Shown: positions 26,264 through 41,459 of the stretch, piece by piece
How positions within the stretch are numbered: the first letter of the stretch is position 1
Layout of the letters: each line of letters opens with the position of its first letter
Source of the DNA: Staphylococcus debuckii
GTDB lineage: Bacteria > Bacillota > Bacilli > Staphylococcales > Staphylococcaceae
Length of the DNA stretch: 64,000 bases
Assembly: GCF_003718735.1 (NCBI RefSeq)
Contig: NZ_CP033460.1
Coordinates: 1,178,001 to 1,242,000, forward strand
Direction: 5' to 3'
Made by a program: the position numbers and the translations under genes
Notes under the pieces: generated by a model
What the model saw: only the letters and a program-made list of their open reading frames with translations
Database searches by the model: none
What the model was told of the DNA's origin: nothing

Positions 26264-26341
26264 CTAATACAAGGATGCATTTACTAAAAATGCGTGTGTT
26301 TTGTAGTGTAGATTTGGTCAAATATCTACACATTAAATATA

Positions 26342-26446: not shown

Positions 26447-26504
26447 AAATTACCTCCTCATTTTACATTGTACTAACAATTGTGTAATTATGCGGCAGTT
26501 CTTT

Positions 26505-26532
26505 TATCAATGCAATACAGACGCTCTCTCAG
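26505..26532. repeat. 28-bp module, copy 1 (copy 2 at 27144-27171)
   Basis: TATCAATGCAAYACAGACRC followed by YCTCTCAG; the copies differ at three positions. Copy 2 stands directly before the second 27-bp hairpin. Confidence 0.6.
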
Positions 26533-26637
26533 CACCTATTTATATGCTTTAGCATAAATAGTTAAGGAAATTTCTAATGCTATCAATCTTAAAATTAAAT
26601 GCTCATTTCTCAGAATTTTTTATATAGTATAATAGAA

Positions 26638-26737
26638 ACCCCTTTGCTTTCTCATGTAGCAAAAGGGACAGTATTCAAATAATCAGATAGGAATATTGCT
26701 TATAAAAGCACCTGTAAGTCTGGGACAAGACTTACTT
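26638..26737 (+). ncRNA. Putative structured small RNA, copy B
   Basis: Preceded by TATAAT (26628-26633), so transcription could begin about 26640. 5' hairpin CCCTTTGCT-ttctcatgt-AGCAAAAGGG, 3' hairpin GTAAGTC-tgggacaa-GACTTAC at 26714-26735. Paralogous to copy A at 24930. Could be an antitoxin or copy-control-type RNA; no target is established. 26738-27089 holds no gene I can support. Confidence 0.45.
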
Positions 26738-27089
26738 ATTTATTATCTCCTTATAATGATCAATAAAACATGTTTAAAGATTTTTTAACTTTTCCCTGTT
26801 ACACGTATCAGAATGCACTTTTGCGTTGTGTACTTTTACAAAAACCAATTTTGGTTTCTGTGTCAAAGCTCAAATTTGAGTTATGAATATAGTTACATCA
26901 GCACAAATTTTATACTCGTTTCTAATACATCATTTCAGTGCGTTAAGTTTAGTATATGACTATCCTATCATTTAAGTACCGCAGTTTTTAGAAACCTCTT
27001 ATGCAAATCAGAACTTTCATGTTACTATATATACGTACCTTCAAGGTACATTTTAGTCATACTATGCCTTTTTTTGATGATTTTAGCGA

Positions 27090-27122
27090 GTCACTACACC
27101 GTAATGTAGTGACTTTTTTTGT
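27090..27122 (+). terminator. Strong plus-strand terminator without an assigned gene
   Basis: AGTCACTAC-accgtaat-GTAGTGACT followed by seven T. No ORF precedes it, so it probably ends a short RNA starting in 26980-27040. Confidence 0.7.
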
Positions 27123-27172
27123 ATAACACTCTATAACTGTATATATCAATGCAACACAGACACCCTCTCAGT

Positions 27173-27199
27173 ATAAAAAACCGCCAATTAAGGCGGTTA
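27173..27199. repeat. 27-bp terminator-like hairpin, copy 2
   Basis: Identical to 26091-26117. Confidence 0.75.
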
Positions 27200-27233
27200 G
27201 GGATTGTCAAAATCAATTAAGAGAGTTTTGTTA

Positions 27234-27305
27234 ATGAAAAATGCATTATTTCTATATTGTCTATTTCTTGAAATAACAACAATCCCTAATCAAAATATAC
27301 AATAA
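27234..27305 (+). CDS. Putative 23-aa hydrophobic peptide within a long inverted repeat
   Basis: ATG start 8 bases after AAGAGAG. The N-terminal half is hydrophobic (MKNALFLYCLFLEI). An 11-base perfect inverted repeat (TTAGGGATTGT at 27197-27207; complement at 27279-27289) encloses the start region. Type I toxin mRNAs are often shut by such 5'-3' pairing, but no homology supports this. Confidence 0.3.
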   Translation: MKNALFLYCLFLEITTIPNQNIQ

Positions 27306-27361
27306 ATACATCATCTATACAATAAAAAGCCACTATCTTGTAAAGATAGCAGCTTATCATG
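27304..27361. repeat. 58-bp direct repeat, left copy, flanking the DUF3102 gene
   Basis: Identical to 27995-28052; weaker similarity continues about 70 more bases (to a shared TTTAAAACA-AATTCCT block). Contains CTATCTT-gta-AAGATAG, a hairpin followed on the minus strand by GGCTTTTTATT. Confidence 0.8.
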
Positions 27362-27662
27362 TTAAGGATATAGGAGGTTATACTTAATTATAACCGACTT
27401 TTTGAATTTAAAACACAATTCCTGTCACTCGATCAACTGACATTTAATGTTTCAACTGATAATAACGATTAACCCGTAAAAGGAGGTGGGAAGGTAAAAC
27501 GAATTACAACTCAGTAACGACTTAACCACAATAGAAACAGAAATTAAAAGTTATCAAAACATCGCTGGTCAATCGATTTTTGAAATTGGTCGTAGATTAA
27601 AACATGTAAAAGAGAATGACTTAGCACATGGAGAATTTGGTAAGTGGCTTGAAAAAGTAAAT

Positions 27663-27980
27663 ATGAGCAGAAGTACTGCTAGAAGATTTATGAAGGTGGC
27701 TGAAAATCCAGAATTAAATTCGCCATCGATGGCGAATTTAGGAACTAGTATTTTGTATGAAATAGCAACTCTTCCTGATAAAGAAAGAGAAAAAGAACAT
27801 TTAACTTCAAGCGGAGAAAAGAAAACACCAGATGAAATGACACAAAGAGAATTACAAGATTTAAAAAAACAACTCAAGCAACGCGACGAACAAAACGCTC
27901 AACTTCAATCTCAAGTAGAACAAGCGCAACGTTCCGAAGAGATTGCACGTAAGCAACTAGAAGAAGCAGAGAATAGATAG
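27663..27980 (+). CDS. DUF3102 family protein, start codon apparently lost
   Basis: The reading frame is open from 27498 and reads NELQLSNDLTTIETEIKSYQ…, the expected DUF3102 N-terminus found in staphylococcal phages and islands. No ATG, GTG or TTG occurs before 27663, and a TAA sits where the ATG should follow AGGAGG (27481-27486). From 27663 only 105 aa remain: the end of the DUF3102 domain (MSRSTARRFMKVAENPEL) and a Q/E-rich coiled coil (QDLKKQLKQRDEQNAQLQSQ). It is probably a pseudogene or uses a non-standard start. It is the only + strand phage-type gene in this zone, enclosed by 58-bp repeats. Confidence 0.6.
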   Translation: MSRSTARRFMKVAENPELNSPSMANLGTSILYEIATLPDKEREKEHLTSSGEKKTPDEMTQRELQDLKKQLKQRDEQNAQLQSQVEQAQRSEEIARKQLEEAENR

Positions 27981-27994
27981 CCGGAAGTAATTGA

Positions 27995-28052
27995 GAAATA
28001 CATCATCTATACAATAAAAAGCCACTATCTTGTAAAGATAGCAGCTTATCAT
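27995..28052. repeat. 58-bp direct repeat, right copy
   Basis: Same sequence as 27304-27361. The stretch 28053-28445 that follows has no credible gene. Confidence 0.8.
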
Positions 28053-28445
28053 GATAGTATAGGAACGTATAATTACTATAGCCAACTTTTTTAAATTTAA
28101 AACATAATTCCTACAACTCGTTCTACTAATGTTTGTTATTTGACAATTTAATATTAATCTACCTTTACTAATCCTTCATTTAATTGCAATGAGTCACACA
28201 CTTATCCGCCAATCTTTCTCTCAGTGAAAAATAAAGGCTCTCTCAGCCTGTTAAAATATAGAAAGTCCGTGTTTATAGCAGTGATTGCATTACTTCATTC
28301 AATACTATGATGATCTACTAATTTTAAAGTAGTTACTTCATATATATTTTGACTTTACCAATTGCTACGGGTACTTTAATAACTGCAACTATATTATTAT
28401 ATTTCACTTTAACAACTAGCTTCATTTAAAATAAATGTCTATATA

Positions 28446-28472
28446 GAAAAAGCCACCTCTTAAGGTAGCTTA
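28446..28472 (-). terminator. Terminator of the terS operon
   Basis: AAGCTACCTT-aag… / AGGTGGCTT on the minus strand followed by TTTTCTAT. It overlaps the stop codon region of the last gene. Confidence 0.75.
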
Positions 28473-28786
28473 TCTAGTAATCGGCTAAATATCTGTTGAA
28501 CACGTCCGCTTGTAACCATGAGCATTTCTCCTATTTTTTCATACGACCAACCATGCGCGAGCAAATCAAAAACAACGAACTCTTTTTCTGTACCAATGTT
28601 TTCAATTACTGACGATAATTCATTAAAAAATATATGTTCTTCAAAATTATCGCTCATTTCTATCGATGTTGTAGGTTGATCTAGTGAAAAGAAGTCATCT
28701 ATGTCTTGTTCTACTGGTGGTTCATCGATAGGGCGGCTCTCATAGCTTAATATAAAGGCTCTAACGCTCTCTTTATCATATATCAT
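28460..28786 (-). CDS. Small sigma-region-4-like HTH protein
   Basis: 108 aa. An acidic N-terminal half (IDEPPVEQDIDDFFSLDQP) and a C-terminal helix-turn-helix of sigma-70 region 4/LuxR type: FVVFDLLAHGWSYEKIGEMLMVTSGRVQQIFSRLLDKL. Last gene of the four-gene leftward operon headed by terS; overlaps the preceding gene by 4 bases. Similar small HTH proteins regulate phage late genes (RinA/ArpU types). Whether this one activates island genes or interferes with the helper is unknown. Confidence 0.65.
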   Translation of the reverse strand: MIYDKESVRAFILSYESRPIDEPPVEQDIDDFFSLDQPTTSIEMSDNFEEHIFFNELSSVIENIGTEKEFVVFDLLAHGWSYEKIGEMLMVTSGRVQQIFSRLLDKLP

Positions 28787-29100
28787 ATATAAACACTGGC
28801 TTTTGCAACACGGCCTAATATTACTGCTCTAGCATGTTTGATTGTATTCTCTGTTACCCCTAAAACATCTGCGATAATGTCATAAGGCTGTTTATCCCAC
28901 CATAACATCTTAATTAATTGCTGCTCTTGTAGCGTCGCATTGTTATATACTTCGGTAATTCCTTTTACGATACTTTTAACTCTATTGTATCTCTGTTCTG
29001 TCACTTGGCTAGCTTGTGTTTTGTACTCATCAACTAATATTTGATAGTTTTCCATATATCCACTCAGAATTTTGTAATCGAAACTCTTTAAAGAACTCAT
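28783..29100 (-). CDS. Small sigma-like HTH regulator
   Basis: 105 aa. The C-terminal half (TLQEQQLIKMLWWDKQPYDIIADVLGVTENTIKHARAVILGRVAK) is a sigma-region-4-type helix-turn-helix, as in RinA/ArpU/DUF1492 phage regulators. The N-terminal half is helical. It overlaps both neighbours by four bases (ATGA-type), so the three proteins are made together. Confidence 0.65.
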   Translation of the reverse strand: MSSLKSFDYKILSGYMENYQILVDEYKTQASQVTEQRYNRVKSIVKGITEVYNNATLQEQQLIKMLWWDKQPYDIIADVLGVTENTIKHARAVILGRVAKASVYI

Positions 29101-29630
29101 ATAACTAGCTCCTCTTTTTGCGTTTGCAATGCAGCTCTTACTTTTCCCACTTCTTCATCAAAATATTTTCTTTGGTCTTTCAAGTGGCCTCTCTGGCGCA
29201 TTAGACGGGCTTCATGCGTGTTTTTATATAAATCTTCACATAACTTCTCAATGCTCTTATAAGGCTTATAAACACCGTTTGTACGCATGTAGTGCATTAT
29301 CTCTTGTTGCTCATGATATGGGTAGGCGCTGACAATGCTTTTAAGTAAATTCATGCGTTTCAATGAGTGATTTTTGTAACGTTCCAACTCTTCTTTTTTC
29401 TCAACAATCCATATAACCAACTTCTCTAATGGATAACTGGTGAAAACTACACCTGTTGCTTCATCACAAGCCATATGCGAGATGTTCAGATGATACATTG
29501 CTTTTATTTGTTCTTCGAGCGCTTGGCATTTTCTGTTTATAAATTGAGGATTGTATTTAACCAATAACTCATATTCTGAAATTCTTTCTTCTCTTTCATA
29601 ATTGAAAGTATTTTCACTTTTATTCAGCAA
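29097..29630 (-). CDS. Phage-type regulator-like protein, 177 aa
   Basis: Helical, charged protein with KSIVSAYPYHEQQEIMHYMRTNGVYKPYKSIEKLCEDLYKNTHEARLMRQRG, which looks like a sigma-region-4-type DNA-binding segment, after a helical N-terminal section. No enzymatic motif. Sixty bases downstream of terS and overlapping the next gene. I do not recognise a named family. Confidence 0.6.
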   Translation of the reverse strand: MLNKSENTFNYEREERISEYELLVKYNPQFINRKCQALEEQIKAMYHLNISHMACDEATGVVFTSYPLEKLVIWIVEKKEELERYKNHSLKRMNLLKSIVSAYPYHEQQEIMHYMRTNGVYKPYKSIEKLCEDLYKNTHEARLMRQRGHLKDQRKYFDEEVGKVRAALQTQKEELVI

Positions 29631-29690
29631 CAGCTCTGCACTCCTTTAAACTTTATCTATTTTATTTTCTGATTGGCTTTGTACTTTTGT

Positions 29691-30164
29691 TTAGTCGTTA
29701 TCTGAAATCCCGAATTGGTCATATACAGATTGTTTCTTAGGAGTTTCATTTTTAGGATCTAATATCTTTAGTCTGGATTCTACTGTTAAGCCTAACTTAG
29801 ATGAAATACTATTCAATTGTGCCAGTGCATCGCGCTTAATAGCATGGTTTTGGTTTAATTTAGTGCCTCTTTCAGTAACAACTACTGCTCCTTCTTGCTT
29901 CATACGTTCAGTGGCTTGAATATAATCCGAATAAGCTTGACAGTATGCTGATACTAGCGCTAAATCTAAGCTGGCAATAGGTAACTCTTTTAATAGCGGA
30001 TATATTCTAAACCATTCCTGTTTTGCTCTATCGTCTAACCACTCTGGCGGTTCTGCCTCTAAAGATGTTAGCTTTTTCATTGCTTCTTCTGTCGCTTTCT
30101 TATTTTCTTGTACTTCTCTAGTGAGTCGTGATTTTTGTTGTGATAATAACTTTCTTTGTGCCAA
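29691..30164 (-). CDS. terS: P27-family phage terminase small subunit
   Basis: 157 aa. The P27/Terminase_4 signature is clear: EPPEWLDDRAKQEWFRIYPLLKEL, LDLALVSAYCQAYSDYIQATERM, RGTKLNQNHAIKRDALAQLNSISSKLGLTVESR. It recognises DNA for packaging and recruits the large terminase, which must come from a helper phage. I choose the TTG at 30164, nine bases after AAGGGG; the frame extends to a TTG at 30185. Canonical SaPI TerS proteins are a different family (Terminase_2), so this satellite may redirect another class of helper. Confidence 0.85.
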   Translation of the reverse strand: MAQRKLLSQQKSRLTREVQENKKATEEAMKKLTSLEAEPPEWLDDRAKQEWFRIYPLLKELPIASLDLALVSAYCQAYSDYIQATERMKQEGAVVVTERGTKLNQNHAIKRDALAQLNSISSKLGLTVESRLKILDPKNETPKKQSVYDQFGISDND

Positions 30165-31787
30165 ATACAACCACCCCTTAATCAATGAAGTATTTTAAAT
30201 AATAAAATGTTGAGAATACGTAGTTACAAAATCAAACTGCAGTTTTCTTTTTCTTATACAAGACTAATTAATGACAAAATTTGTGTGGCATCAAATTAAT
30301 ATCCTTATTCAATGCAGCTAATCTAGTTAACTAACAGAATAGTTACAAGATATTAAATTGATATGGTTAACTTTAACCGTGATAGATAAACAGGGCGACT
30401 ATATAGAGTTTTCTTCAAGTTCATCTAGTAAGTAAGCTAACTTACACTTTAAACACTCTCTATAAGCCTATTGAAGCCTTATTTAAAAGGATTTCTTCAC
30501 GAATATTCACCTTTTATTTTCAACTTTTGGTTACGTTTAAGGCCGGCTCGTTTTCAACGTTCTCTCAACACCCACCCGGTTTTTCTTCGCCCCGCAAAAA
30601 AAATTTCCCAAAAAAATAATTTCAAAAAACTTCAAAATTTTATCTGCCGTGAATTTTATTGTGGCAGCTAAAACACACTACCTCTAAATTTTCGGTATCC
30701 AGTCTTTTAATCCAGTCCCTCAGCATTATCTATATTGATATATTTACCTTCACTAATTACCATGCTCTCTAATTGCTTCATATAAGCCTGTCATCAGCTT
30801 TTAACCAGTTCCTTACTCTTTAATCCTATTTGTTCCTATCTTTCTTACAATAAGCCTGAAATTGCAATTCAAACTATTCTATTTATGTTTGTTCTCTCAA
30901 CATTTCTATAATTATTCTTCATTCTTTTTTATTTATAATTTCTTCTCTCTTGATCTAAATATTTTTTTATCTTGAAAGCAAAACTACAAATCGAAATCAC
31001 AAAACAAATTCAAATTATTTTTTTAGTTTCATTTCTCATTTCAAAATTCTATTTCACTTTCTGAATTTCAAAATACTTTCTGACTTCTCATTTACATTTA
31101 AACTTTCATTCTATTATCTTTAATCAAACATCAACTTCACTTTTGTTCAATCAACTAATTATCTTCTTAACTCTTTCGTCTTCTAACATAAAAGATAATT
31201 GTTTCTTCTAATTCATTCTAATTAATATATTCTCAACTCTTTTGATATTGAACACAAACATGATTGTTTCTTCTAATTCATTCTAATTAATATCTTCAAA
31301 ACTTATTTGCTTACTCACATACATTTAAGTATATAATCTATGTGTATTGCCTATACACTTTAGCAAGCAATCACCTTAATGCTATAGGTTAATACCTAGA
31401 CCTTTATACATGCAGTGTATATTTTGATGCAGTTATGCAATCATAGCCCTGTAACTAATATGAGGCTACTAATATATAGCGGCTATTTGCTTGTGCTGTA
31501 GGATAGTTACCTCTACATTGTATGCCTAACCTATAGGCTGTTTGGTTGTATACTGTTGAGTTATCTATACTATACGGTTAATATAATCTGCCGCATATTA
31601 ATTCCAACATAAAGTTTTTGTTTGCCTTTATCTATCTATCTTTGCATAGCTTCCTACTAAGTAACTCACTGTAGCACTCATGCATGAGACCACTTATAAA
31701 AGAAAGGCCACCACATATATTGAAGTGATGACCTTGTAAACGTGCTTTAGAGTTAGAACAGCATTTGCACAAATGAAGGAGTAACTC
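30165..31787. other. 1.6-kb gene-free region upstream of terS
   Basis: No ORF with a ribosome site on either strand. The + strand is strongly pyrimidine-rich from about 30480 to 31330. It contains a 65-66 bp tandem duplication (31169-31300) sharing a 31-base block at 31198 and 31263, and a CTATAG-rich stretch (31330-31570). Its place next to terS makes it a candidate for the packaging (pac/cos) site or a decayed capsid-interference locus. Neither can be shown here. Confidence 0.6.
31169..31300. repeat. 65-66 bp tandem duplication
   Basis: AACTCTTT… begins at 31169 and 31235; ATTGTTTCTTCTAATTCATT and the following 11 bases are identical at 31198-31228 and 31263-31293. Confidence 0.75.
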
Positions 31788-31865
31788 ATGGCTATTTTAG
31801 ACTTTAACAAAAAGCGCTTGTTGTTAAAGATAATTATCATCTTTAATACCTTTATTATAACATAG
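31788..31865 (+). CDS. Putative 25-aa hydrophobic peptide (type I toxin-like)
   Basis: AAGGAG six bases before an ATG. Short basic N-terminus (MAILDFNKKR) then an uninterrupted hydrophobic helix (LLLKIIIIFNTFIIT). Upstream at ~31706-31740 is a GCCACCAC…GTGATGACC hairpin related to the one at 24711. Good ribosome site plus a membrane-peptide profile resembles staphylococcal type I toxins, but I recognise no exact homologue. Convergent with the gene ending at 31885. Confidence 0.45.
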   Translation: MAILDFNKKRLLLKIIIIFNTFIIT

Positions 31866-31884
31866 AAAGCTCAACCGCGCTATT

Positions 31885-32343
31885 TTAAGCACCATTCAAA
31901 TTAATAGAAACTGCTAAGATTTCACCCATGTGACTCACTCTATTATCTTTACCTTCTGCATTTTTTACATACACGTCAACACTATCCACTTTATTACCCT
32001 TGATTTGTTCAAATGCTTTATCTTTTGCATTATCGCCACTCTTCCAAGCATGAACGAGTGTATGATTTTTCTTAACTATAAACTCTCTATTATTTCTCTG
32101 ACTTGAAGCAATGATAAAGTTCAAATTACCATTCATCATCACACAACTGTTTTTATTAAACTTAATCTTTTTAACTGCTTGTGGTTCGATTTCTCCTTCT
32201 TCAAAGTCGCTTACAATATTTAACTTATTATCTGCATCAGCCAGTTCTACAGGCACACTACTTGAACTAGCCAATATCATTAAATCTTCGCCGTTTTCAG
32301 TTACCTTTGCCCTGTTTCCTTTGTATCTAATAGCTGTAATCAT
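31885..32343 (-). CDS. Island protein of unknown function, 152 aa
   Basis: Beta-rich, soluble protein with AAGGAGGT before the ATG. Sections such as VELADADNKLNIVSDFEEGEI, FNKNSCVMMNGNLNFIIASSQ and GEILAVSINLNG are structural-protein-like, but no family is recognised. Twelve bases downstream of the 206-aa gene; last gene before the non-coding region, in the position where SaPIs carry capsid- or packaging-interference genes. Confidence 0.6.
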   Translation of the reverse strand: MITAIRYKGNRAKVTENGEDLMILASSSSVPVELADADNKLNIVSDFEEGEIEPQAVKKIKFNKNSCVMMNGNLNFIIASSQRNNREFIVKKNHTLVHAWKSGDNAKDKAFEQIKGNKVDSVDVYVKNAEGKDNRVSHMGEILAVSINLNGA

Positions 32344-32355
32344 TGCATTACCTCC

Positions 32356-32976
32356 TTACCATTTCTTTTTGCCGGAGTGATATTTCTGAAAGTCTTCTAA
32401 TGACTCCTCTTTCAACATATCTTCAAGCAGCCATGCGTAATCTCTAGGCGTTGTATTACCTCCGATTTCTACTTCATCAGCTAGCATTTGCCCTTTGTAT
32501 TGATTATGAATATTGCTAGGGTGCTGCTGCTCTTGTTTGACATAGCGTAAGCGTGAAATACGTCTGCCGCCTTCATTCTTATTCTCAATCATTTTACGGT
32601 AAGTAGAAGCTACTTCTTGAAGTTGGGCTTTCATCTCTTTGCGGTACTGTTCATGCGCTTTCTTAATGTCTGTCATTTCATCTTCATATGTGCCATAGAA
32701 CTCTGTAAACTCATCATCTGTAATACTGTAATCCGATGTTTTAAGTTGTTCATCTACTTCCAATAACTCTTGTTCCAAATTCGCTTGGTGACGTTTTAAT
32801 TTTGTCGCTTCAGCGTATTCATCTTGATTTTGGCAGTGCGTAATTTTAGCATTGATTTTTTTAATACGATCTACTAGCTGATTATATTTTTGTTGAACCT
32901 CTTTAGCACGTAATCTTTTGCCATAAATTTGTTTATCAAAAATACTGATTGAATTTTCTTTTACTTTTTTACTCAT
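32356..32976 (-). CDS. Coiled-coil island protein, 206 aa
   Basis: Start at ATG 32976, nine bases after AGAGG, and inside the end of the previous gene (8-base overlap). Long charged helices dominate (QQKYNQLVDRIKKINAKITH, LKRHQANLEQELLEVDEQL, AHEQYRKEMKAQLQEVASTY). The C-terminal part has a WLLEDMLKEESLEDF motif. Conserved-looking satellite gene without assigned role; possibly a scaffold or DNA-associated protein. Confidence 0.6.
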   Translation of the reverse strand: MSKKVKENSISIFDKQIYGKRLRAKEVQQKYNQLVDRIKKINAKITHCQNQDEYAEATKLKRHQANLEQELLEVDEQLKTSDYSITDDEFTEFYGTYEDEMTDIKKAHEQYRKEMKAQLQEVASTYRKMIENKNEGGRRISRLRYVKQEQQHPSNIHNQYKGQMLADEVEIGGNTTPRDYAWLLEDMLKEESLEDFQKYHSGKKKW

Positions 32977-33337
32977 AATTAACAACCTCTTTTTCGTTTT
33001 TAATATTAATACTTTTAATCACATCACGACGGCGCACGCTTCCTCTTATCAAGTTGTTTAAACTATTAATAGCTCGCTCTTTTTCTTCTTGAGTTGTAAT
33101 CATAAAATACCCGTTTTGTTTAGGGGAGTAGCTGCAGCCGATAGGATAACCGTAATTTGTTGATAAATCGCGTATAATTCGACGCACCCAACGCTCATTA
33201 GTTGAATTTGCTGCATATCCTAATTGATTTAAAATCTTCTCTTTAGTAATATGTTTGTTTGGTGCATTAATTATCACATTGACTACTTGGCGGTGTTCAT
33301 CTGGTAATTTTTGCACCTCGTCCTTCGTTTTGTCCAT
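32969..33337 (-). CDS. Winged-helix-like DNA-binding protein
   Basis: 122 aa. A winged-helix profile spans about 10-85: EHRQVVNVIINAPNKHITKEKILNQLGYAANSTNERWVRRIIRDL (helices) and GYPIGCSYSPKQNGYFMITT (wing). The tail is basic (GSVRRRDVIKSI). AAGGAG seven bases before the ATG. Related phage and SaPI proteins replace small regulators; no specific partner can be named. Confidence 0.6.
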   Translation of the reverse strand: MDKTKDEVQKLPDEHRQVVNVIINAPNKHITKEKILNQLGYAANSTNERWVRRIIRDLSTNYGYPIGCSYSPKQNGYFMITTQEEKERAINSLNNLIRGSVRRRDVIKSINIKNEKEVVNYE

Positions 33338-33454
33338 TTCATTACTCCTTTTCTTAATTTTATGAACTTATGTTTTTTAAAACTATCACCTCCTTAATTA
33401 ACCTGTATTGATGAAGAATACAACCGCGCGCTCGATTAGGGCAGGGGAAATCGC

Positions 33455-33589
33455 TTATAGAAACGACTTGACCGTCATGTAATTCATAGCCTGCATAATG
33501 TCCTTATACGCTTCTAATAGCCCTGTATAATACCTTAATAACGTACCTGCGCGTGTATCAAGTTGATTAGCTATAGTTTCCATATCCAT
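33455..33589 (-). CDS. Small island peptide, 44 aa
   Basis: MDMETIANQLDTRAGTLLRYYTGLLEAYKDI… a helical peptide of a kind I associate with staphylococcal islands. The 51 bases around its start (33570-33620) are closely repeated at 34459-34509 around the start of another small ORF, so the two genes share leader and first codons. Ribosome site weak (GTAGG). Confidence 0.5.
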   Translation of the reverse strand: MDMETIANQLDTRAGTLLRYYTGLLEAYKDIMQAMNYMTVKSFL

Positions 33590-33711
33590 TGTCCTACTTC
33601 TACATTCATTATTTTTTAGCGAGATTTTTACAATACAATTTTTTAAACTTATAATATTACTTTTGTTTAATAGCATGGTCACACATCAGTACCACACTAG
33701 AGTATATAACG

Positions 33712-34044
33712 CTAGTTGCGGCAAGAGTTTGAATGTTTTACTTCTAATTCTTTGATACTTTTTTCGCTTGCATTAAAATGCCAATTAAGACGTGTTTCAT
33801 CTTTAACCTTGAATCCTGCTTTCATCATTGCACCCTTGAATTGACCGTTTGTGATATAACTACCTTCAAAAGTTCCTGATAATGCTTCACTATATATACG
33901 TTCAAATACATGTTTTAAACCATACGAGGAACGTCTAACATTGAATGTTTTTATTTTATTGATCGAGTAACAAAACTCGAGTAATGCGTTTTTCTTTACC
34001 TTATTCAATTCTTCAAAGTGTTCTGGTTTATTAATATCAGTCAT
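33712..34044 (-). CDS. Conserved small staphylococcal island protein, 110 aa
   Basis: Contains RRSSYGLKHVFERIYSEALSGTFEGSYITNGQFKGAMMKAGFKVKDETRLNWHFNAS. The SYGLKH…YITNGxFKxAMxxAGF…LNWxFN pattern occurs in proteins of staphylococcal cassette and pathogenicity islands; function not established. Lies just downstream of the first iteron array, on the same strand as rep. Confidence 0.65.
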   Translation of the reverse strand: MTDINKPEHFEELNKVKKNALLEFCYSINKIKTFNVRRSSYGLKHVFERIYSEALSGTFEGSYITNGQFKGAMMKAGFKVKDETRLNWHFNASEKSIKELEVKHSNSCRN

Positions 34045-34092
34045 TTAAATTCTCCATTCTATATTTATTGTGTGTGACGAGTATAGGAATAA

Positions 34093-34350
34093 AAGTTACT
34101 ACATTCGACAAAAGTTACTACATACCGCTTTAAAAGATTGATATATAGCTGTTTTAAGGTTATTTCATTGATATATAGACCTACTACAAAAGTTACTTCA
34201 TTTATAAAAAAAGTAGCTACATAAGTTACTACTTCTTATGAATGTCTACTACATTTATTTATATGTAGCTACATAAGTTACTACTTAAAAAGTTGATAAC
34301 AGAGGCGATTAAACACACTTTGTAGTAACTTTCTTAATATGTAGTAACTT
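34093..34350. other. Iteron array A (origin-like), AAGTTACTAC repeats
   Basis: Direct copies at 34093, 34112, 34190 (degenerate), 34223 and 34275; inverted copies GTAGTAACTT at 34322 and 34341. Two GTAGCTAC blocks (34213, 34265) and two TTGATATATAG blocks (about 34138, 34169) lie between. Iterated Rep-binding sites around AT-rich DNA are the plan of SaPI origins. Confidence 0.7.
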
Positions 34351-34356
34351 TTTGTT

Positions 34357-34479
34357 CTACTCTCCATACACAGATTTTATTTTCTTATACAAATTGCTTC
34401 CTTTTCTAGGTTCAATAATATTTGTAGTATCACTGTACTTGTCATCAGTATCATGAGGAGCTATAGTTTCTATATTCAT
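34357..34479 (-). CDS. Small island peptide, 40 aa
   Basis: ATG seven bases after GGAGAAG. Begins MNIETIA like the 33455-33589 peptide, then diverges (SDTTNIIEPRKGSNLYKKI). Located between the two iteron arrays. Longer upstream codons in this frame are translations of iteron DNA and are rejected. Confidence 0.45.
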   Translation of the reverse strand: MNIETIAPHDTDDKYSDTTNIIEPRKGSNLYKKIKSVYGE

Positions 34480-34511
34480 TGATTTACTTCTCCGTTCATT
34501 ATTTTTTAGTA

Positions 34512-34811
34512 GTTCCCCCTCAATTCCCCGTAGTTCCTCTTTTCTTTTAATCATTAGGGAACCGTCTCTGTCTTACTCTCTCAACACTTAAAACTAAATG
34601 GTTCCCTAAGTTCCCCTTTTTTTGAGACCTGTATAACTATTAGTAAATATACAGATATAGATATAAATGATAAGTACGTCTCTAATATTATTTATGGTTA
34701 AAAATTATAGGGAACTTGGGGAACTAATAACATAAAACCATTGGTGTTACAGTGTTTATACGGTTCCCTCTTTAATTAAAAAATGGGGAACCAATAGGGA
34801 ACTTAGGGAAC
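34512..34811. other. Iteron array B (probable replication origin), GGAAC repeats
   Basis: Eleven GGAAC/GTTCC copies: 34512, 34533, 34558, 34601, 34610 on one side (four as GTTCC) and 34711, 34720, 34763, 34787, 34798, 34807 on the other (five as GGAAC). They flank an ~90-bp AT-rich core at 34620-34709. Inverted short-repeat sets around an AT-rich core directly behind rep match the known SaPI ori layout. Confidence 0.75.
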
Positions 34812-34822
34812 TAAGCTCAATT

Positions 34823-36487
34823 TTATTCATAGTCAGAATGATATTGGTTAAAATCAAAATCTAGTTGCTTTATAATTTCTTCTTTAATCGCATAACCTCT
34901 CGGCTTTTTTCCTTTATGCCCAACTCTTTTGGTTAATTTCTGTTTATCTGTTATGAGATAGCTTCTTTCGTTCCACGATTTAGTAATACTGTGTAACTCA
35001 TGCCCTAAAAATTGTTTCAAAGTTTCACCCATTACCAACAGATAATCACGTTTGTATATTGCTTTTACATCACCATTAGTTACAGTGTAATAACCCTCGC
35101 CTTCAATGTGGTTGCGGTTAGCGTCCAAATACTGTAAAAGTTCTTCTAGTAACTGCTTAGGCTTATCAATGTTCTTATTGGTTTCAAGCATTTTATTATA
35201 AGTTCGGTCTAACGTGGTGTATGGATCATGTTGAAACCCTTCAATATCATTGATGATTTCACCAGCAACCTGTAACAAAGCGAAAGCCCTGCCTATTCTT
35301 GCGACAATCTCATTTGTTCCAGCCTTTTCGATGAGACGCTTCTCGTGGCTTTTAAATGAGTTATAGTAGCCTTCTTTGTTTTTGCGGTATTGTTCCATGA
35401 AAGCCATGCCTAACGTGCCGTACTGATTGTTAATGCCTTCGTACAAATCAATAAAAGAAACATCACTGTTAAATGGGTCATCTTGCAATGTAATAACCCT
35501 AGCACCAATACCAGCTTTTTCATTGCCGCTATCCGCTAAAGATGTTTCACCTGTTGAAAGCATAATGTTTTGCCATGTTCTCTCTACTTCAATACTCGAC
35601 TTGTTCCCACGACCCTTTTCACGACCACCACTAAATTGGTATATGACATCTGGTATCATATAAGGGTTCGCTTTTCTTGAGTCGTCTAAAAGAAGTGGAT
35701 AGCTGTTCAAGAATGCAGATTTGCGTTCAATATTGACTCTGGTTGTATTCCATTCACTGATAAGTTTTGAAGTTCCCCACACACTGCTAGCTACCTTTAA
35801 AGCTGTTGTTTTACCTCGTGAACTAGCCCCGCTTAAATCTACAATAAAAGGTTCTACATCAAAATCATGAAGCAATATCGAGCCACAAGACGCATACAAC
35901 ATCATCATGGCAGGGTATGAATTGGATATAAGATTAAAAACATTATCAGCGTAACCTTGCAATGTTCCTTTAGTCTTGAATTGGTTCGCAATGTTTTTAT
36001 AACCCTGTTCATGAATCGTCAACTCAATTTCGCTATCCAACGGATGTACAAAGTATTTACCTACATGGCCTAATCGAGTGACTATATTTGTTATAGGCAA
36101 CGGGTTCAGTCGCATATACATGCTTATATAGTTAACGAGATCAGTACGATTTGTAGTGTTTACATCTAAACCTCTGCTAGCTAGCCCGATTAAATGTGTA
36201 GCGTCTGCTAAGTCACGAGCAAACACGGGAAACTGGTAAGTTCTGCCACCGTTATTAAAGGTCATTTCATAAGTAAACTCGTTTGTTTCAATATCTTTAT
36301 ACTTTTTAGTAATAAATGGCGGTGTCGAAGTGATTAAAATTGGAACAACTTGCTTATCGTCACCTCTACCTTTTTCCACCATTTTATATAACCATCCATT
36401 ATCGCGTACTTGGTAATTAGTTGGTATACTCTCGGCGGCATTACTATCATTGACGATTTCTGTAATTTCTGTGGGTAGTTCGGCCAT
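34823..36487 (-). CDS. rep: SaPI-type Rep (DUF927-like replicative helicase)
   Basis: A 554-aa initiator/helicase. DUF927-like N-terminal region with FTYEMTFNNGGRTYQFPVFARDLAD; Walker A as DLSGASSRGKTTALKVASSVWG (near 218-240); Walker B-like YPLLLDDSRK; sensor-type NIMLSTGETSLAD. The C-terminal domain (about 430-554) should bind the ori iterons. It lies four bases downstream of the primase gene and upstream of iteron array B. AAAGGAG site seven bases before the ATG. Confidence 0.88.
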   Translation of the reverse strand: MAELPTEITEIVNDSNAAESIPTNYQVRDNGWLYKMVEKGRGDDKQVVPILITSTPPFITKKYKDIETNEFTYEMTFNNGGRTYQFPVFARDLADATHLIGLASRGLDVNTTNRTDLVNYISMYMRLNPLPITNIVTRLGHVGKYFVHPLDSEIELTIHEQGYKNIANQFKTKGTLQGYADNVFNLISNSYPAMMMLYASCGSILLHDFDVEPFIVDLSGASSRGKTTALKVASSVWGTSKLISEWNTTRVNIERKSAFLNSYPLLLDDSRKANPYMIPDVIYQFSGGREKGRGNKSSIEVERTWQNIMLSTGETSLADSGNEKAGIGARVITLQDDPFNSDVSFIDLYEGINNQYGTLGMAFMEQYRKNKEGYYNSFKSHEKRLIEKAGTNEIVARIGRAFALLQVAGEIINDIEGFQHDPYTTLDRTYNKMLETNKNIDKPKQLLEELLQYLDANRNHIEGEGYYTVTNGDVKAIYKRDYLLVMGETLKQFLGHELHSITKSWNERSYLITDKQKLTKRVGHKGKKPRGYAIKEEIIKQLDFDFNQYHSDYE

Positions 36488-36491
36488 TTAA

Positions 36492-37349
36492 TCACTCCTT
36501 TCGCGTGTGTCTTAAATAAATACTTTTAAATGTCTTGATAATTTCTTTATCTTCAATAGGCGGCGTACATTGCTTTGCCCAACCATAAGCCAAACCATAT
36601 ACAAGGCTAGGATCTACATATCTACGCAATAAATAACCGATAATTTGTGTTAATACTGTGTTTCGTTCACCAGCACCTACCCCCATAGCGACACTTTGCC
36701 AATGTTCTGCACTATGCTTTTTATGATATGAAACAGTAATAGGCGTATCCTCTTGTTTAAACTCGTTGGCCCAACCTTCTATAGTAGAGCAATCCAATAT
36801 TGGAGCATCATTGTATCTATATACAAACGCGCAGCTTTTATCTTTTATAACGGGTAATGCCATTGCCCGGCTAGGTTGATATGAGCCCTCATCTACTTTA
36901 TGACCAATTTTAGAAGCTAATACCTTTGTGTATTTACGATAATCTTCCCCGTTAATACGTTCATTTAAAGGGATAAATAAGCGTAATCTAGGGGCTTCTG
37001 TGTGGTGGCTATAACTTGTATGCCAAAAGTAAGCAAATGCTCCTAAATGTGCTTTAAACGCTTCATTCAACGCCTTTAAATCAGAAATATCATCATAATC
37101 TAATACCAATACATTTCGATAAATCACATTATTATCTGCACGATATTTTTTACCTTTACCACTATCCGCAAGGTCGCCATAAACGGCTACCCCGCGACTA
37201 TATTTATTGATGTTAATTTGTGGTATAGCTAGTCTATTAACAAGCTCATTCCATTTAGGTTGTGAGAACTGTTTAAATGAACCAGCGTCTAAACTGTCAT
37301 ACCAAACAATGCTTACTTGAACATCATATTCCAAATTAATTTTATTCAT
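36492..37349 (-). CDS. pri: SaPI-type primase
   Basis: 285 aa. The core contains NVLVLDYDDISDLKALNEAF and FWHTSYSHHTEAPRLRLFIPLN, the metal and nucleotide sites of the archaeo-eukaryotic primase-like fold used by phage and island replication proteins. The C-terminal PriCT-like helical part has GAGERNTVLTQIIGYLLRRYVDPSLVYGLAYGWA. AGAGGTG precedes the ATG. pri and rep are adjacent in SaPIs as here. Confidence 0.85.
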   Translation of the reverse strand: MNKINLEYDVQVSIVWYDSLDAGSFKQFSQPKWNELVNRLAIPQININKYSRGVAVYGDLADSGKGKKYRADNNVIYRNVLVLDYDDISDLKALNEAFKAHLGAFAYFWHTSYSHHTEAPRLRLFIPLNERINGEDYRKYTKVLASKIGHKVDEGSYQPSRAMALPVIKDKSCAFVYRYNDAPILDCSTIEGWANEFKQEDTPITVSYHKKHSAEHWQSVAMGVGAGERNTVLTQIIGYLLRRYVDPSLVYGLAYGWAKQCTPPIEDKEIIKTFKSIYLRHTRKE

Positions 37350-37435
37350 TTTGTCACCTCTGAGGAATATCAGAGTGGAATATGCTATAATAAAAATAGA
37401 TTCACTATCCCACTCTGGTGTGTTTTTTATAGTCC

Positions 37436-37735
37436 TTACGCGTCTCTTTCGGTTTGCTCGCCATTAAGAGACGCTTTTTCTATTTCATGGATTTTTTCCA
37501 TAATCTCATTGAATTCTTTCATATACATAATCATTAAATCAATAAGTTGCGTATTTTGGATCCGGCACTCATGATATTTTAAACCGTGCATTTTAATTTC
37601 TTCACGACTTAATTTATGGTTTGGCCCATGCGTGAAATATTTTTCATCAAACCAAACAACAGAGGTTACTACATCGTTAATTTTTTCTTTCACTATATCT
37701 AAATCACAAAATAAATCTCTTAATTCCCAATTCAT
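37436..37735 (-). CDS. DUF1474 family protein
   Basis: 99 aa beginning MNWELRDLFCDLDIVKEKINDV, the DUF1474 signature found almost only in staphylococcal islands, with IQNTQLIDLMIMYMKEFNEIMEKIHEIEKAS near the end. Helical, cytosolic, role unknown. AAAGGAG precedes the ATG. Placed between regulators and primase as in SaPIs. Confidence 0.85.
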   Translation of the reverse strand: MNWELRDLFCDLDIVKEKINDVVTSVVWFDEKYFTHGPNHKLSREEIKMHGLKYHECRIQNTQLIDLMIMYMKEFNEIMEKIHEIEKASLNGEQTERDA

Positions 37736-37829
37736 TATTAATCGTCTCCTTTATGAAATTTAATAATATTATTATTTTCTTCTAAACGGATATTCTCACC
37801 GTACAAGGCACATACATTTTTTAGTTTTT

Positions 37830-38189
37830 TTATTTTTCCTCCAATCCTTCAACAAAGCCCGTCATCTCTTCAATAGCTATCTTTAATTCTTCAATATCGT
37901 CTTCAGTTAAGAATTTACTAATATTTGAATCCATATAATTGAGCGGGAAATTAATAAATATTTCGATCGAATCGATAAGGTTTATATATTCTCTATAATC
38001 ACCAAGAATGTTTACAATCTCGTCATCACTTAAATTTGGGTATTCTTTCTTTATAATTGAAAACTCTCTGTCATGACGTTCTTGTAATAATTCCACCATT
38101 TTTTTAGTAAACAAAGAATTTTTTAAACTTCTGTCAATACTCACAATATTTTTTACATTTTCATAATCTTTACTATTTAATTTTTCCAT
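37830..38189 (-). CDS. Hypothetical island protein, 119 aa
   Basis: Acidic, helical protein (LQERHDREFSIIKKEYPNLSDDEIVNIL; EDDIEELKIAIEEMTGFVEGLEEK). Unrecognised. Starts 2 bases after the preceding stop; the only site is AGGTAATT-like. Probably translated as part of the leftward early operon. Confidence 0.55.
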   Translation of the reverse strand: MEKLNSKDYENVKNIVSIDRSLKNSLFTKKMVELLQERHDREFSIIKKEYPNLSDDEIVNILGDYREYINLIDSIEIFINFPLNYMDSNISKFLTEDDIEELKIAIEEMTGFVEGLEEK

Positions 38190-38191
38190 TC

Positions 38192-38395
38192 TTAATTACC
38201 TACCTTTTTCTTATTTTTAAGTTCTAAAATTCTGCTAATATCCATCTCCAGACATGCGATACAAATATCTTCGCTGACTTCTGGGAAATGCTTTTTAAAT
38301 ACATCGGGTGCTATGTTGAGTAAAAGATTGTGTTGTGTATCTTTTATGTTGTACCAACCGACAATCGACTTCGTAATAATTACTTGTTGTTTCAT
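38192..38395 (-). CDS. Small island protein, 67 aa
   Basis: Reads ITKSIVGWYNIKDTQHNLLLNIAPDVFKKHFPEVSEDICIACLEMDISRILELKNKKK. Mixed alpha/beta, no motif recognised. It lies between the DUF771-like gene and the 119-aa gene in a tight leftward series. Confidence 0.5.
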   Translation of the reverse strand: MKQQVIITKSIVGWYNIKDTQHNLLLNIAPDVFKKHFPEVSEDICIACLEMDISRILELKNKKKVGN

Positions 38396-38411
38396 GTCTG
38401 TTACCTGCTTT

Positions 38412-38657
38412 CTAAAATATTTGATTATGATTTTCTTCGATATATTGCTTCATATACTTTGCGACAAAAGACCAATGGTCATTTTTATGTGCTGGTGCAT
38501 GTGTGAACTCAGCAATTTTTGATTGGTGTTTGGGGTTCAGCAGCAGCTTTTTCAACAATGTATTTCTGCTTTTATTCGTGTGTGCCATTAGATCGTACAT
38601 CGTCCACAGTGTCTTATATTCTAATAATGTTGTTGTGAAATCTTTTTCTTGTAGCAT
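38412..38657 (-). CDS. DUF771-like (excisionase-type) protein, 81 aa
   Basis: Start at ATG 38657, directly after AAGGAGGTGA; the longer frame has no support. LWTMYDLMAHTNKSRNTLLKKLLLNPKHQSKI and the ending HWSFVAKYMKQYIEENHNQIF fit DUF771/helix-turn-helix proteins of staphylococcal phages, small DNA-binding proteins in the place where SaPIs carry xis. A role in excision is inferred from position. Confidence 0.6.
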   Translation of the reverse strand: MLQEKDFTTTLLEYKTLWTMYDLMAHTNKSRNTLLKKLLLNPKHQSKIAEFTHAPAHKNDHWSFVAKYMKQYIEENHNQIF

Positions 38658-38670
38658 ATTTTTCACCTCC

Positions 38671-39312
38671 TTATGCCATTTTCTGATTATTAACGTATTT
38701 ACTATAAATATGTTTGCTGACTGACAAAGGAAGATTATATTTATCAACAAATACCATAAATTCTACCGTGTCATTTAATACTTGTTGTCTTAACGCCAGC
38801 ATGTCTCTTGTCATATCTTCCTTTTGAATCATCTTAGGAAAGCCGAACACATTTGATACTGCTTTGTTACTAATTGTTTGAGCTTTGCAATAATCTTTTT
38901 TAGAAATAGCTTCAATACCATTTTTCAAATTATCCATTGCTTCTTTTTGCTTTTCTTTGTCTAGCATGCGAAAGGCTTCATATCCTTTAAGTCCTGTGGC
39001 TTGTCGTAATTCTTTAATAACCTGCTTAACCCATTTCTTAAATTCTTGAGCTTCGGCACGTCTACTATTCCAAATAGCTTCGTAAATACCATATTCAGAA
39101 ATGATACTCGCTTTCTGTGTCTTTCTTGCAAATTTACTATTAGAGGTGCTATCCACAATGTGAGTAGTCACATCTTCTTTATCTATCATTCTTAGCATAT
39201 GTGGGGTCAAGCTATACCCTAATACCTTCGCTACATCTCCTGCTACTGCCCAATACTCACCGTCTTTTTCAATAAAGCGGATTTCTTTGTTATTGAATAG
39301 TTGTTTAATCAT
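38671..39312 (-). CDS. Bro-N domain phage antirepressor-like protein
   Basis: 213 aa. An N-terminal Bro-N domain (about 3-100: IRFIEKDGEYWAVAGDVAKVLGY, ISEYGIYEAIWNSRRAEAQEFKKWVKQVIKELR) and a C-terminal helical domain (DMTRDMLALRQQVLNDTVEFMVFVDKY). Such antirepressors interfere with phage repressors. First large gene after the Cro-like regulator; AAGGAGG before the ATG. Confidence 0.8.
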   Translation of the reverse strand: MIKQLFNNKEIRFIEKDGEYWAVAGDVAKVLGYSLTPHMLRMIDKEDVTTHIVDSTSNSKFARKTQKASIISEYGIYEAIWNSRRAEAQEFKKWVKQVIKELRQATGLKGYEAFRMLDKEKQKEAMDNLKNGIEAISKKDYCKAQTISNKAVSNVFGFPKMIQKEDMTRDMLALRQQVLNDTVEFMVFVDKYNLPLSVSKHIYSKYVNNQKMA

Positions 39313-39343
39313 TGATTATGCCTCCTTTTAACGATATACAATT

Positions 39344-39559
39344 TTATAAGTCTCTATTTACGTCATCAATACTTAAAAAAATAGGTATGACATTATTAAT
39401 TTTTAACAACACCCTTCCACTCGGAAATGCTTTTCCGTTTTCAATATCCGAAAGGTAACTTCTAGAAATACCTATTTTTCTCGCAACTTCTTCTTGTGTC
39501 ATTTTCAATTCTTTTCTCTTCTTTTTCACTAGGTTACTATAATGTATCTCCTTAATCAT
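39344..39559 (-). CDS. Cro-like HTH regulator (Str-type)
   Basis: 71 aa HTH_3/XRE domain: LVKKKRKELKMTQEEVARKIGISRSYLSDIENGKAFPS. Divergent from the larger repressor gene, as str and stl in SaPIs. The recognition helix is nearly identical to that of the divergent repressor (SRSYLSDIENG in both). AAGGAGGTG before the ATG. Confidence 0.8.
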   Translation of the reverse strand: MIKEIHYSNLVKKKRKELKMTQEEVARKIGISRSYLSDIENGKAFPSGRVLLKINNVIPIFLSIDDVNRDL

Positions 39560-39694
39560 TTAATCACCTCCTTAAACGTCTCTTTCAACGTCTAAATACA
39601 TTATAAACACTCCTACAAACAATGTCAACACAAAATGTCTTTATTAACGTCATACCATTTGGTAATATTATTTATATAGTAAGGAGGTTAACTA
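39560..39694. promoter_or_regulatory. Divergent control region between cro-like and stl-like genes
   Basis: Short repeats of AACGTC/AATGTC occur at about 39588, 39600, 39627, 39639 and 39650, overlapping the presumed divergent promoters. They are likely operator half-sites for the two XRE regulators. TATATAG before AAGGAGG at 39680 is a possible -10 for the rightward gene. Confidence 0.5.
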
Positions 39695-40216
39695 ATGTCT
39701 GTTGGTAAAACAATTAAAGAAATTAGAAAGCAACGCAACTTAACTCAAAAACAATTGGCTGATCAAATCGAAATATCACGTTCTTATTTAAGTGATATTG
39801 AAAACGGAAATAAAAATCCAAGTATAAAAACAACCCAGCGACTTGCAGAAAAACTAGGTGTAACTGTTGCATATTTAACAAGTGGTAAAAAAATGTATGC
39901 AGATTTAACAGATGAAGAAAAAACGCAACAATTTATCAAATTAAATAAAATGCTTAGACATGAGTACACTAGTAAAGAAGAGAAATTGAAAAATGAATTA
40001 TTAGAATTACTTGAAAGAAAATTATCGTTCAATGAAATACACTATCTCAACAACGCGCTTATTTTTTTAAAAGAAGATGAAAGAGACAATATTTTATTTA
40101 TGTCTGTTCTGATCCAGCAGTTATACAATTACAAAGGTTCAAAAAATAAAGCTGTGTATGATGATATGATAAGCGAATTTTCGGAATTTCTTTATAAGTA
40201 TTTCAACATTAAGTAG
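39695..40216 (+). CDS. CI/Stl-like XRE master repressor
   Basis: 173 aa. The N-terminal HTH (KTIKEIRKQRNLTQKQLADQIEISRSYLSDIENGNKNPS) is followed by a helical C-terminal region (LRHEYTSKEEKLKNELLELLERK) without the Ser-Lys LexA-type autoprotease. SaPI Stl proteins likewise lack autocleavage and are lifted by helper phage proteins, so induction here probably needs a phage anti-repressor instead of RecA. Eight bases upstream of int in the same direction. Confidence 0.8.
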   Translation: MSVGKTIKEIRKQRNLTQKQLADQIEISRSYLSDIENGNKNPSIKTTQRLAEKLGVTVAYLTSGKKMYADLTDEEKTQQFIKLNKMLRHEYTSKEEKLKNELLELLERKLSFNEIHYLNNALIFLKEDERDNILFMSVLIQQLYNYKGSKNKAVYDDMISEFSEFLYKYFNIK

Positions 40217-40224
40217 GTGATTAA

Positions 40225-41280
40225 ATGGCTTCATTCGAAAAACAAAAGAATGGTAAAACATGGCGCTACATCATTTCATACAAAGATGATGACGGTAAAT
40301 ATAAGAAATATCAAAAAGGCGGTTTCCGTACTAAACAAGAAGCAAAGGTACATGCTACAGAAATGGAGTATAACTTAAAAAGAGGGTACAATATCGATAA
40401 TAATGTGGTGTTTGTGGAATACTTTAAGCAGTGGTATGAAGTTAATAAGAAACCGCATGTTTCAGTGAGTACATTGAACCGTTATGAGTCGGCATATAAG
40501 CATTTGAAAGACTTCTTTAAGAATACATACATTAGAGAGGTTAAGCCTACGGATTATCAAGAGTTTTTAAATGAGTATGCGAAAACTCACAATAAAGAAA
40601 CTGCACGTAAATTAAACAGTTATGTGAGAAATTGTTTTGAGCAGGCTATACATGAAGGCTTAATATTGCGTAATCCTACTTTTAAGGCCAGTATAACGGG
40701 TTCTGTGCCTAGTAAAAGTGAAGAGCTAAAGTTTATCAGTCACAAAGAATATATACGCTTAAAACATCATTTAGAAAGCAAAGAAAGCACCTCATCACTG
40801 GTGTTGTTAGTTGCACTTGTGACAGGTGCTAGGTTTTCAGAAATTGTAAATATGAAGAGAGAAGATTTCTATGTAGGTGATAATAAAATACACTTGCCCG
40901 GTACGAAAACAAAAACATCAGATCGTACTATTACGATAGATACAAATACACTGAATAAAGTACGCAACTTCATTAAAGGTAATCCAACTAATATAAATGG
41001 TTATGTATTTACTATCAATGGTTCGATTATTTCTAATGCAGCAGTAAATAAAGCGTTGAAATCTGCATGTAAGAAGTTAGGTATAAAGAACATTACTATT
41101 CACGCCTTACGCCACACACACGCCTCTGTTTTAATACACAATGGTTATAGTATACATTATATCTCTAAACGCTTAGGACATGCCTCTGTGCTTGTCACAC
41201 AATCCGTATATCTGCACTTATTAGAAGAAACTTATGAGCGTGAAGATAATAGCTTTATCCAGTTCATGAATAATCTTTAA
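40225..41280 (+). CDS. int: Tyrosine recombinase (island integrase)
   Basis: 351 aa. N-terminal arm-binding AP2-like domain (GKTWRYIISYKDDDGKYKKYQKGGFRTKQEAKVHATEME), core-binding SAM-like domain (about 65-165), and catalytic domain. Catalytic residues: Arg in VTGARFSEI (~203), HALRHTH (His-x-x-Arg, ~293-296), LGHAS (~317) and Tyr in SVYLHL (~328). It inserts the island at the tRNA-Arg 3' end; it lies 167 bases from the right core. Confidence 0.95.
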   Translation: MASFEKQKNGKTWRYIISYKDDDGKYKKYQKGGFRTKQEAKVHATEMEYNLKRGYNIDNNVVFVEYFKQWYEVNKKPHVSVSTLNRYESAYKHLKDFFKNTYIREVKPTDYQEFLNEYAKTHNKETARKLNSYVRNCFEQAIHEGLILRNPTFKASITGSVPSKSEELKFISHKEYIRLKHHLESKESTSSLVLLVALVTGARFSEIVNMKREDFYVGDNKIHLPGTKTKTSDRTITIDTNTLNKVRNFIKGNPTNINGYVFTINGSIISNAAVNKALKSACKKLGIKNITIHALRHTHASVLIHNGYSIHYISKRLGHASVLVTQSVYLHLLEETYEREDNSFIQFMNNL

Positions 41281-41315
41281 GGAAAATATTTTCTCTATCA
41301 ATATATGCTGCATTT

Positions 41316-41345
41316 TAACATCACTATTGAGTGGTGTTTTCTTTA
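41316..41345 (+). terminator. Terminator after int
   Basis: ACATCACT-attg-AGTGGTGT followed by TTTCTTT. Confidence 0.7.
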
Positions 41346-41378
41346 TATCAATATCAATAGAAGAAGACATTTCGAATC

Positions 41379-41403
41379 CATTTTCCCTAAAATTTCCCTA
41401 AAA
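41379..41403. repeat. Putative right arm-type integrase sites
   Basis: CATTTTCCCTA and TTTCCCTA, 11 bases apart, same spacing and orientation as 24576-24600. They lie 44 bases from the right core. Confidence 0.5.
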
Positions 41404-41441
41404 AAATTAAAAAGCCCATAACCGCGAGGGTTAAAGGCTTT
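41400..41441 (-). terminator. Island-supplied terminator behind tRNA-Arg
   Basis: Minus strand: AAAGCC…AACC-ctcgc-GGTT…GGGCTTT followed by TTAATTTTTT. It starts 7 bases after the tRNA 3' end and lies within the island. Confidence 0.75.
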
Positions 41442-41446
41442 AATCA

Positions 41447-41459
41447 ACGTCCTGGGAGG
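41447..41459. repeat. Right attachment core within tRNA-Arg
   Basis: ACGTCCTGGGAGG, identical to 24463-24475. It covers the last 12 bases of the tRNA gene plus one flanking base, so insertion restores the tRNA. Confidence 0.8.

Follow-up and report, generated by a model that had tools for sequence, protein, structure and literature searches.

A probable displaced replication origin of another Rep class in a Staphylococcus debuckii phage satellite

Two iteron arrays and the tail of a second Rep

Why should a phage satellite of ~17 kb carry two different iteron arrays behind a single replication gene? The question is raised by a 64,000-nucleotide stretch of the Staphylococcus debuckii genome (G000, 2.69 Mb; contig NZ_CP033460.1, positions 1,178,001 to 1,242,000), which we call the window and whose own coordinates are used below. 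The satellite holds both arrays, array A (34093..34350) and array B (34512..34811). Array B is best read as a live, ordinary origin of a phage-inducible chromosomal island (PICI), and from sequence comparison we consider it very probable that array A is a displaced orphan origin, left behind when the replication module was incompletely replaced.

As the initial annotation had described, two different arrays lie 3' of the minus-strand rep gene, whose stop is at 34823, and a gap of 160 bp measured from the last A site to the first B site agrees with the distance given there. Array A contains six exact copies of AAGTTACTAC (34093+, 34112+, 34223+, 34275+, 34322- and 34341-), which are all the exact copies in the window, as well as an imperfect copy, AAGTTACTTC, at 34190+ and two GTAGCTAC palindromes at 34213 and 34265. 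These coordinates confirm five direct copies (one imperfect) and two inverted copies of a motif different from that of array B. Array B starts 11 bp 3' of the rep stop, and the 11 copies in inverted sets around an AT core that had been reported for it were recovered as 6 GGAAC and 5 GTTCC, the core stretch being 80-82% A+T in the 50-base windows that begin at 34630 and 34655. Chance repetition was rejected for both arrays: when first-order Markov sequences were built from each array region, the observed 8-mer copy numbers (7 for A, 5 for B) were reached in 0/2000 trials for either.

The resident Rep (34823..36487, minus strand, 554 aa) belongs to the DUF927/Cch-like class of Staphylococcus aureus pathogenicity island (SaPI) Reps (PF06048, E 4.8e-42). 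It matched PDB entry 8tch (E 1.9e-158) and phrog_8841, and an HTH_56 match (E 3.4e-4) fell below that family's cut-off; 7ola was not among its PDB matches. Two papers place the PICI origin immediately 3' of rep and describe its layout (PMC6092414), and have SaPI Reps recognise iterons just 3' of their gene via the C-terminal domain (PMC7581432). With two iteron sets, an AT-rich core and a position directly 3' of a full-length rep, array B does have the SaPI ori layout first proposed for it. To place the locus among others, 192 rep-bearing loci of four Rep classes were reduced to 136 non-redundant regions by shared 15-mers; 85 of the 136 had an array directly behind rep under a five-copy 8-mer rule, starting a median of 9 bp after the stop (range 1-53, n=85).

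Between the arrays lies a feature on which the initial annotation was silent: the last 33 codons and stop of a second Rep, a 482-aa protein of P4/D5 type (34357..34458, minus strand), with array A starting 7 bp after this orphan stop codon. When the 482-aa protein was searched against the whole genome, a single match was obtained at E<=0.001 (residues 441-482, 74% identity, E 5.3e-13). Its last 33 codons derive from rep, and no more of this Rep than the tail was found. The full-length protein matched PF19263, D5_N and a P4-family primase model, and PDB 7ola (E 9.1e-31); the PDB name of the 7ola/7om0 class is 'DNA primase', and we take it to be the SaPI5 Rep.

The partner of array A was evident in relatives. 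A 351-bp array-A region was searched in 84 genus genomes (the window's own and 83 others, E<=0.001), and six matched: the matches were long in the own genome, G073 and G050, and 29-56 bp stretches in the other three. Nearly full-length homologues of array A and its flank (78-81%) occur at four places in 2 of the 83 other genomes, namely at three places in two islands of G073, two of them a tandem pair, and at one place in G050. In all three islands array A follows the gene for the 482-aa Rep and is followed by a homologue of ORF110, the open reading frame (ORF) that lies behind array A in the window (33712..34044, minus strand; phrog_9576, unknown function; relatives 82-90% identical in amino acids). 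The IMG/VR contig L057 has the same order, so that ORF110 follows array A in L028, L029, L030 and L057; in L058, whose rep is 91% identical, the array is diverged and ORF110 is not there. The window's array A is colinear with the live origin of L028 (82% over 386 bp). The B motif, in turn, also stands behind Reps 96%, 80% and 78% identical to the resident one (L059, L168 and L169), and array A is not present in those three loci. Pattern scans for the arrays returned 17 and 24 stretches, two of which (L084 and L114, both already known contigs) carried one of the two arrays along with a related rep.

Because of this cognate pairing and the rep tail abutting it, we regard array A as the origin of another Rep. 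Its iterons lie directly 3' of a rep stop (gap 7 bp) and are colinear with a live origin; there is no full-length cognate Rep in cis, and for that reason we call it an orphan origin. In L029 (G073, 7465-8233) array A is duplicated in tandem together with 7 codons of the rep tail and the ORF110 start, and the intervening ORF110 is cut; the duplication may have arisen through a AAAATTAAATCT stretch that is similar in ORF110 and the rep tail.

The orphan tail is in frame with the start of another gene in ORF65 (34357-34554), between the arrays. That start consists of the first 7 codons (MNIETIA; 34459..34479, minus strand) of a gene of the SAPI family (PF16560), cut by a junction, and aligns with intact starts in L059 and L064. 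The junction sequence, TATAGCT (34459..34465, minus strand), occurs in both the L059 SAPI gene start and the L058 tail of the 482-aa rep (rep482). Read on the minus strand, array B and the seven SAPI codons after it align with L064 and L059; past TATAGCT the alignment is with the rep482 tail. Since TATAGCT is in both parental types, the simplest reading is a crossover at this 7-bp microhomology. IMG/VR did not contain the exact junction, and among five proteins found with ORF65 the junction was spanned by ORF65 itself (P0001) alone.

A decayed second SAPI copy (33438..33589, minus strand; 35.9 bits over residues 1-35) lies beyond ORF110, where tblastn pieces match residues 1-26 and 80-106 and nothing else, so pieces of the broken gene flank array A on both sides, a point absent from the initial annotation. 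In L067-L070 the gene order is ORF110 - SAPI - ORF122, and the right-hand parent was therefore probably rep482 - array A - ORF110 - SAPI. The SAPI gene is broken in the window island; 14 of the 83 other genus genomes hold 17 matches to it, of which 16 are nearly full length.

Displaced Rep tails in other islands

Displaced modules of this kind recur. When 55-aa Rep ends (122 distinct) were searched against 3 kb of sequence following each live rep stop (E<=0.01), 21 sense and 0 antisense matches were obtained, of which nine were judged displaced tails in seven regions: the window, L058, L064 (three), L075, L181, L252 and L254. The other matches were dropped as the region's own frameshifted rep (L279 and the first in L343), an ORF122-like gene (four: L229, L234, L246 and L253), an ORF152-like start (five: the second in L181, L227, L296, L297 and the second in L343) or a wrong frame (one in L252). 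Upstream control stretches gave matches in 5/130 regions, all weak (E 6e-4 to 8e-3, 25-41% identity), which we took as background.

A scan for exact 8-mer clusters past 300 bp was positive in 7/136 regions and in 0/134 upstream control stretches, though these are mostly coding. Five of the seven contain modules (the window, L058, L064, L170 and L254); the late clusters of L196 and L240 resemble coding or low-complexity sequence. L170 was added from this array scan, its 7-codon tail being read by eye, and the L029 tandem copy is redundant, lies outside the 136 and was left uncounted. The union of both searches gives 10 displaced Rep tails in 8/136 regions, 9 of the 10 with an array behind, six by the array scan and three (L075, L252 and the first displaced module of L064) by eye or alignment. 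In the six orphan arrays that were measured, the start lies between -8 and +12 bp relative to the orphan stop. The tail remnant in L181 has no array behind it, as judged by eye.

The nearest live origins elsewhere are 82% identical for the window, 70% for L058, 71% for L170, 98.4% for L254, 99.6% for L252 and, in two short pieces, 80% for L075. The most elaborate stack, in L064 (IMGVR_UViG_2718217992_000001, 532-4440), comprises four origin modules, one the origin of a live rep539 with GTCACCC-type repeats (by eye) and three displaced. Behind the live rep539 come two displaced rep539 tails and their arrays, then a Prim-Pol gene and finally a DUF927 Rep tail with a B-like array. The second module matched its own record alone and is 72% identical to its own live origin, the third is 99.5% identical to its nearest live origin, and the fourth is 99.7% identical to its nearest, the window's array B. 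L252 resembles the window event, in that a SAPI start (by eye) runs into the 3' portion of a rep of another class with its origin. Where a displaced Rep tail has a gene start or a start codon fused to its left side, the tail is in frame in 4/4 cases (the window, L252, L075 and L254); chance would give ~1 in 80.

Proposed incomplete replacement and its alternatives

An ancestral island may have carried a P4/D5-type Rep (SaPI5-Rep-like), immediately followed by array A and then by ORF110. A crossover would have imported the pri gene, DUF927 rep, array B and first SAPI codons of another island, its right end coming to lie at the shared TATAGCT, within the final codons of the old rep. With the end placed there, the old rep would be lost, and 33 codons, the origin and ORF110 would stay. 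At present, replication most likely starts at array B, bound by the C-terminal domain of the resident Rep, and array A would be a spare origin without a cognate initiator. The cognate pairing in relatives, the rep tail, the junction, the genome search that found the tail alone and the recurrence elsewhere are seen in the sequences themselves; we infer the direction and order of these events, which array the Rep binds and the present passivity of array A.

The assignment of array B to the resident Rep draws on 20 DUF927 Reps with an assignable motif (motifs assigned by hand, L061 omitted). C-terminal identity was higher within than between motif groups, a result reached by 1/5000 permutations, by 5/5000 without L063 (identical to L027) and by 17/5000 without L059 as well. 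All five C-termini closest to the resident one come from GGGAAC loci, and the three of TACTAC type are among the farthest. Identity of the body and the C-terminus diverged in L060 (98% and 80%), L170 (75% and 50%) and L171 (45% and 69%), which suggests that C-terminus and origin move together.

Several observations weigh against this account. The association of C-terminus and motif weakened after whole-protein relatedness was subtracted (78/5000; variants 37-111/5000), and the C-termini of the GGGAAC loci L173, L180 and L062 are no nearer the resident one than those of other-motif loci. In L060, with a Rep 95% identical to the resident one, the array of the B motif is sparse. DUF927 Reps in L174, L176 and L181, 43-47% identical to the resident one, carry TACTAC-type iterons; these three loci contradict an array A motif exclusive to the P4-type Rep class, and that idea was rejected. 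Finally, the array A iterons are undecayed, which fits a recent event but would also fit continued use.

The age of the module was approached through private changes, using an iteron column mask from a consensus that includes the window. In the window lineage they affect 1/72 iteron columns versus 40/249 columns elsewhere; in the four live lineages the ranges are 0 to 4 of 72 and 12 to 68 of 249. The 33 codons of the orphan tail hold 4 synonymous and 0 non-synonymous private changes. These counts suggest that most divergence predates capture or that array A is still constrained. The initial annotation had offered 'a fossil origin from another Rep type': its attribution to another Rep stands on the 82% colinearity and the abutting rep 3' end, and 'fossil' overstates the decay because the iterons are intact.

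Intact iterons beside diverged spacers would also be seen if array A is still used in trans, the second option of the initial annotation, bound by an other-class Rep from a co-resident or incoming island, and several other islands have orphan arrays with at least five exact iterons. We nevertheless think such use improbable: the whole-genome search found no cognate Rep beyond the tail, no array was seen behind the L181 remnant, and four orphan modules match live ones elsewhere at 98-99.7% identity, which marks them as young leftovers. It is comparably doubtful that staphylococcal satellites keep an archive of displaced modules, each a Rep C-terminal tail with its cognate origin and up to three of them behind the live one, that are not dead; if they do, archived modules would allow replication by the Reps of other islands and provide landing homology for switching replication specificity. 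A slightly better, still unlikely, candidate is that array A was kept as the control region of ORF110 and not as an origin. ORF110 starts 48 bp from the outermost iteron, follows array A in four of the relatives (with L058, where the array has diverged, lacking it there), and is open in the window with 19 synonymous and 4 non-synonymous private changes. Yet it also lies behind other arrays or reps (L067-L070, L181), the 6 promoter-like sites in 33400-34830 are no more than shuffled sequence gives (mean 7.1), and a control region would account for retention, not for the iterons.

That the resident Rep binds both arrays through one motif seems very improbable. Some Reps of its class do pair with TACTAC-type iterons (L174, L176 and L181), but the two arrays share no common core (GGGAAC versus GTTACTAC), array A is accompanied by the tail of another Rep, and the resident C-terminus is nearest to GGGAAC loci. 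The least remote of the alternatives, though still one we would not favour, is an insertion in place of a replacement: array A, the tail and ORF110 would have entered, as a block and with duplication of the SAPI start, an island in which array B and the DUF927 rep were already present. The SAPI start does flank the block on both sides (34459-34479 and 33512-33589). Against an insertion, the order ORF110 - SAPI - ORF122 in L067-L070 means that the right-hand SAPI piece may be native to the array-A parent, and L252 has a similar junction from SAPI start to rep tail with different neighbours. Incomplete replacement of the replication module remains the explanation we hold to be very probable.

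The host island and known systems

The probable limits of the island are 24463..41459, set by a 13-bp direct repeat, ACGTCCTGGGAGG, whose copies (24463-24475 and 41447-41459) are probably the attachment (att) sites of the 17-kb island; the right copy is the 3' end of tRNA-Arg(tct). As in PICIs, an integrase (40225-41280, plus strand) is accompanied by divergently transcribed regulators, a helix-turn-helix (HTH) repressor-like protein (39695-40216, plus strand; matches below curated cut-offs) and an HTH_3 regulator (39344-39559, minus strand). The island also has the order of pri and rep followed by an origin, and it encodes terS. Its parts are a TscT toxin protein family gene (37436-37735, PF07342, E 2.9e-38) upstream of pri, the primase-like pri gene itself (PriCT_1; 36492..37349, minus strand; PF08708, E 2.2e-10), the DUF927 rep, array B and a small terminase gene, terS (Terminase_4; 29691-30185). 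ORF122 (32969..33337, minus strand; phrog_2113) is a conserved island gene found downstream of the SAPI gene in relatives. In a phage collection the wider island matched 14 records, the best being the SaPI-like PT1028 (20% of the query, 69% identity); window positions 33700-34560 had no match in that collection, nor 34050-36487 in a plasmid collection.

The literature searched yielded no account of rep-tail/origin modules that are stacked or orphaned; as far as that search reached, the building blocks are known and recurrent displaced modules are undescribed. If our reading holds, satellites may not always swap initiator and origin by clean replacement, and the suggested crossovers would have their ends immediately past the incoming origin and close to the old rep 3' end, leaving the old origin behind. 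Orphan origins would then mark past replicon swaps and can be searched for mechanically. They make replication of one island by another's initiator testable, and they are a trap for automatic origin annotation.

Compared with known SaPI and PICI origins, array B fits the pattern and array A shares the build and the spacing to a rep stop; array A differs in keeping no more than the final 33 codons of its Rep in cis and in lying behind a second, unrelated origin. The Rep cognate to array A matches the 7ola/7om0 class, of which the window keeps the tail alone, whereas the L028 member sits in an island with phage portal and capsid genes. A phage portal is encoded close behind the origin in the islands with the 482-aa Rep (L028 8641-11669; L029, L030, L057 and L058), according to a family search on L028 and tblastn homologues in the other four, and L028 also encodes an HK97-type capsid protein; these islands are presumably akin to capsid-forming PICIs. 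A further likeness is to the orphan C-terminal tips of Rhs and CdiA proteins, in which the old 3' module is pushed aside by a new one and persists as a truncated orphan. The parallel is an analogy only: what stays behind here is a Rep tail with a DNA origin, and no toxin or immunity gene is part of it.
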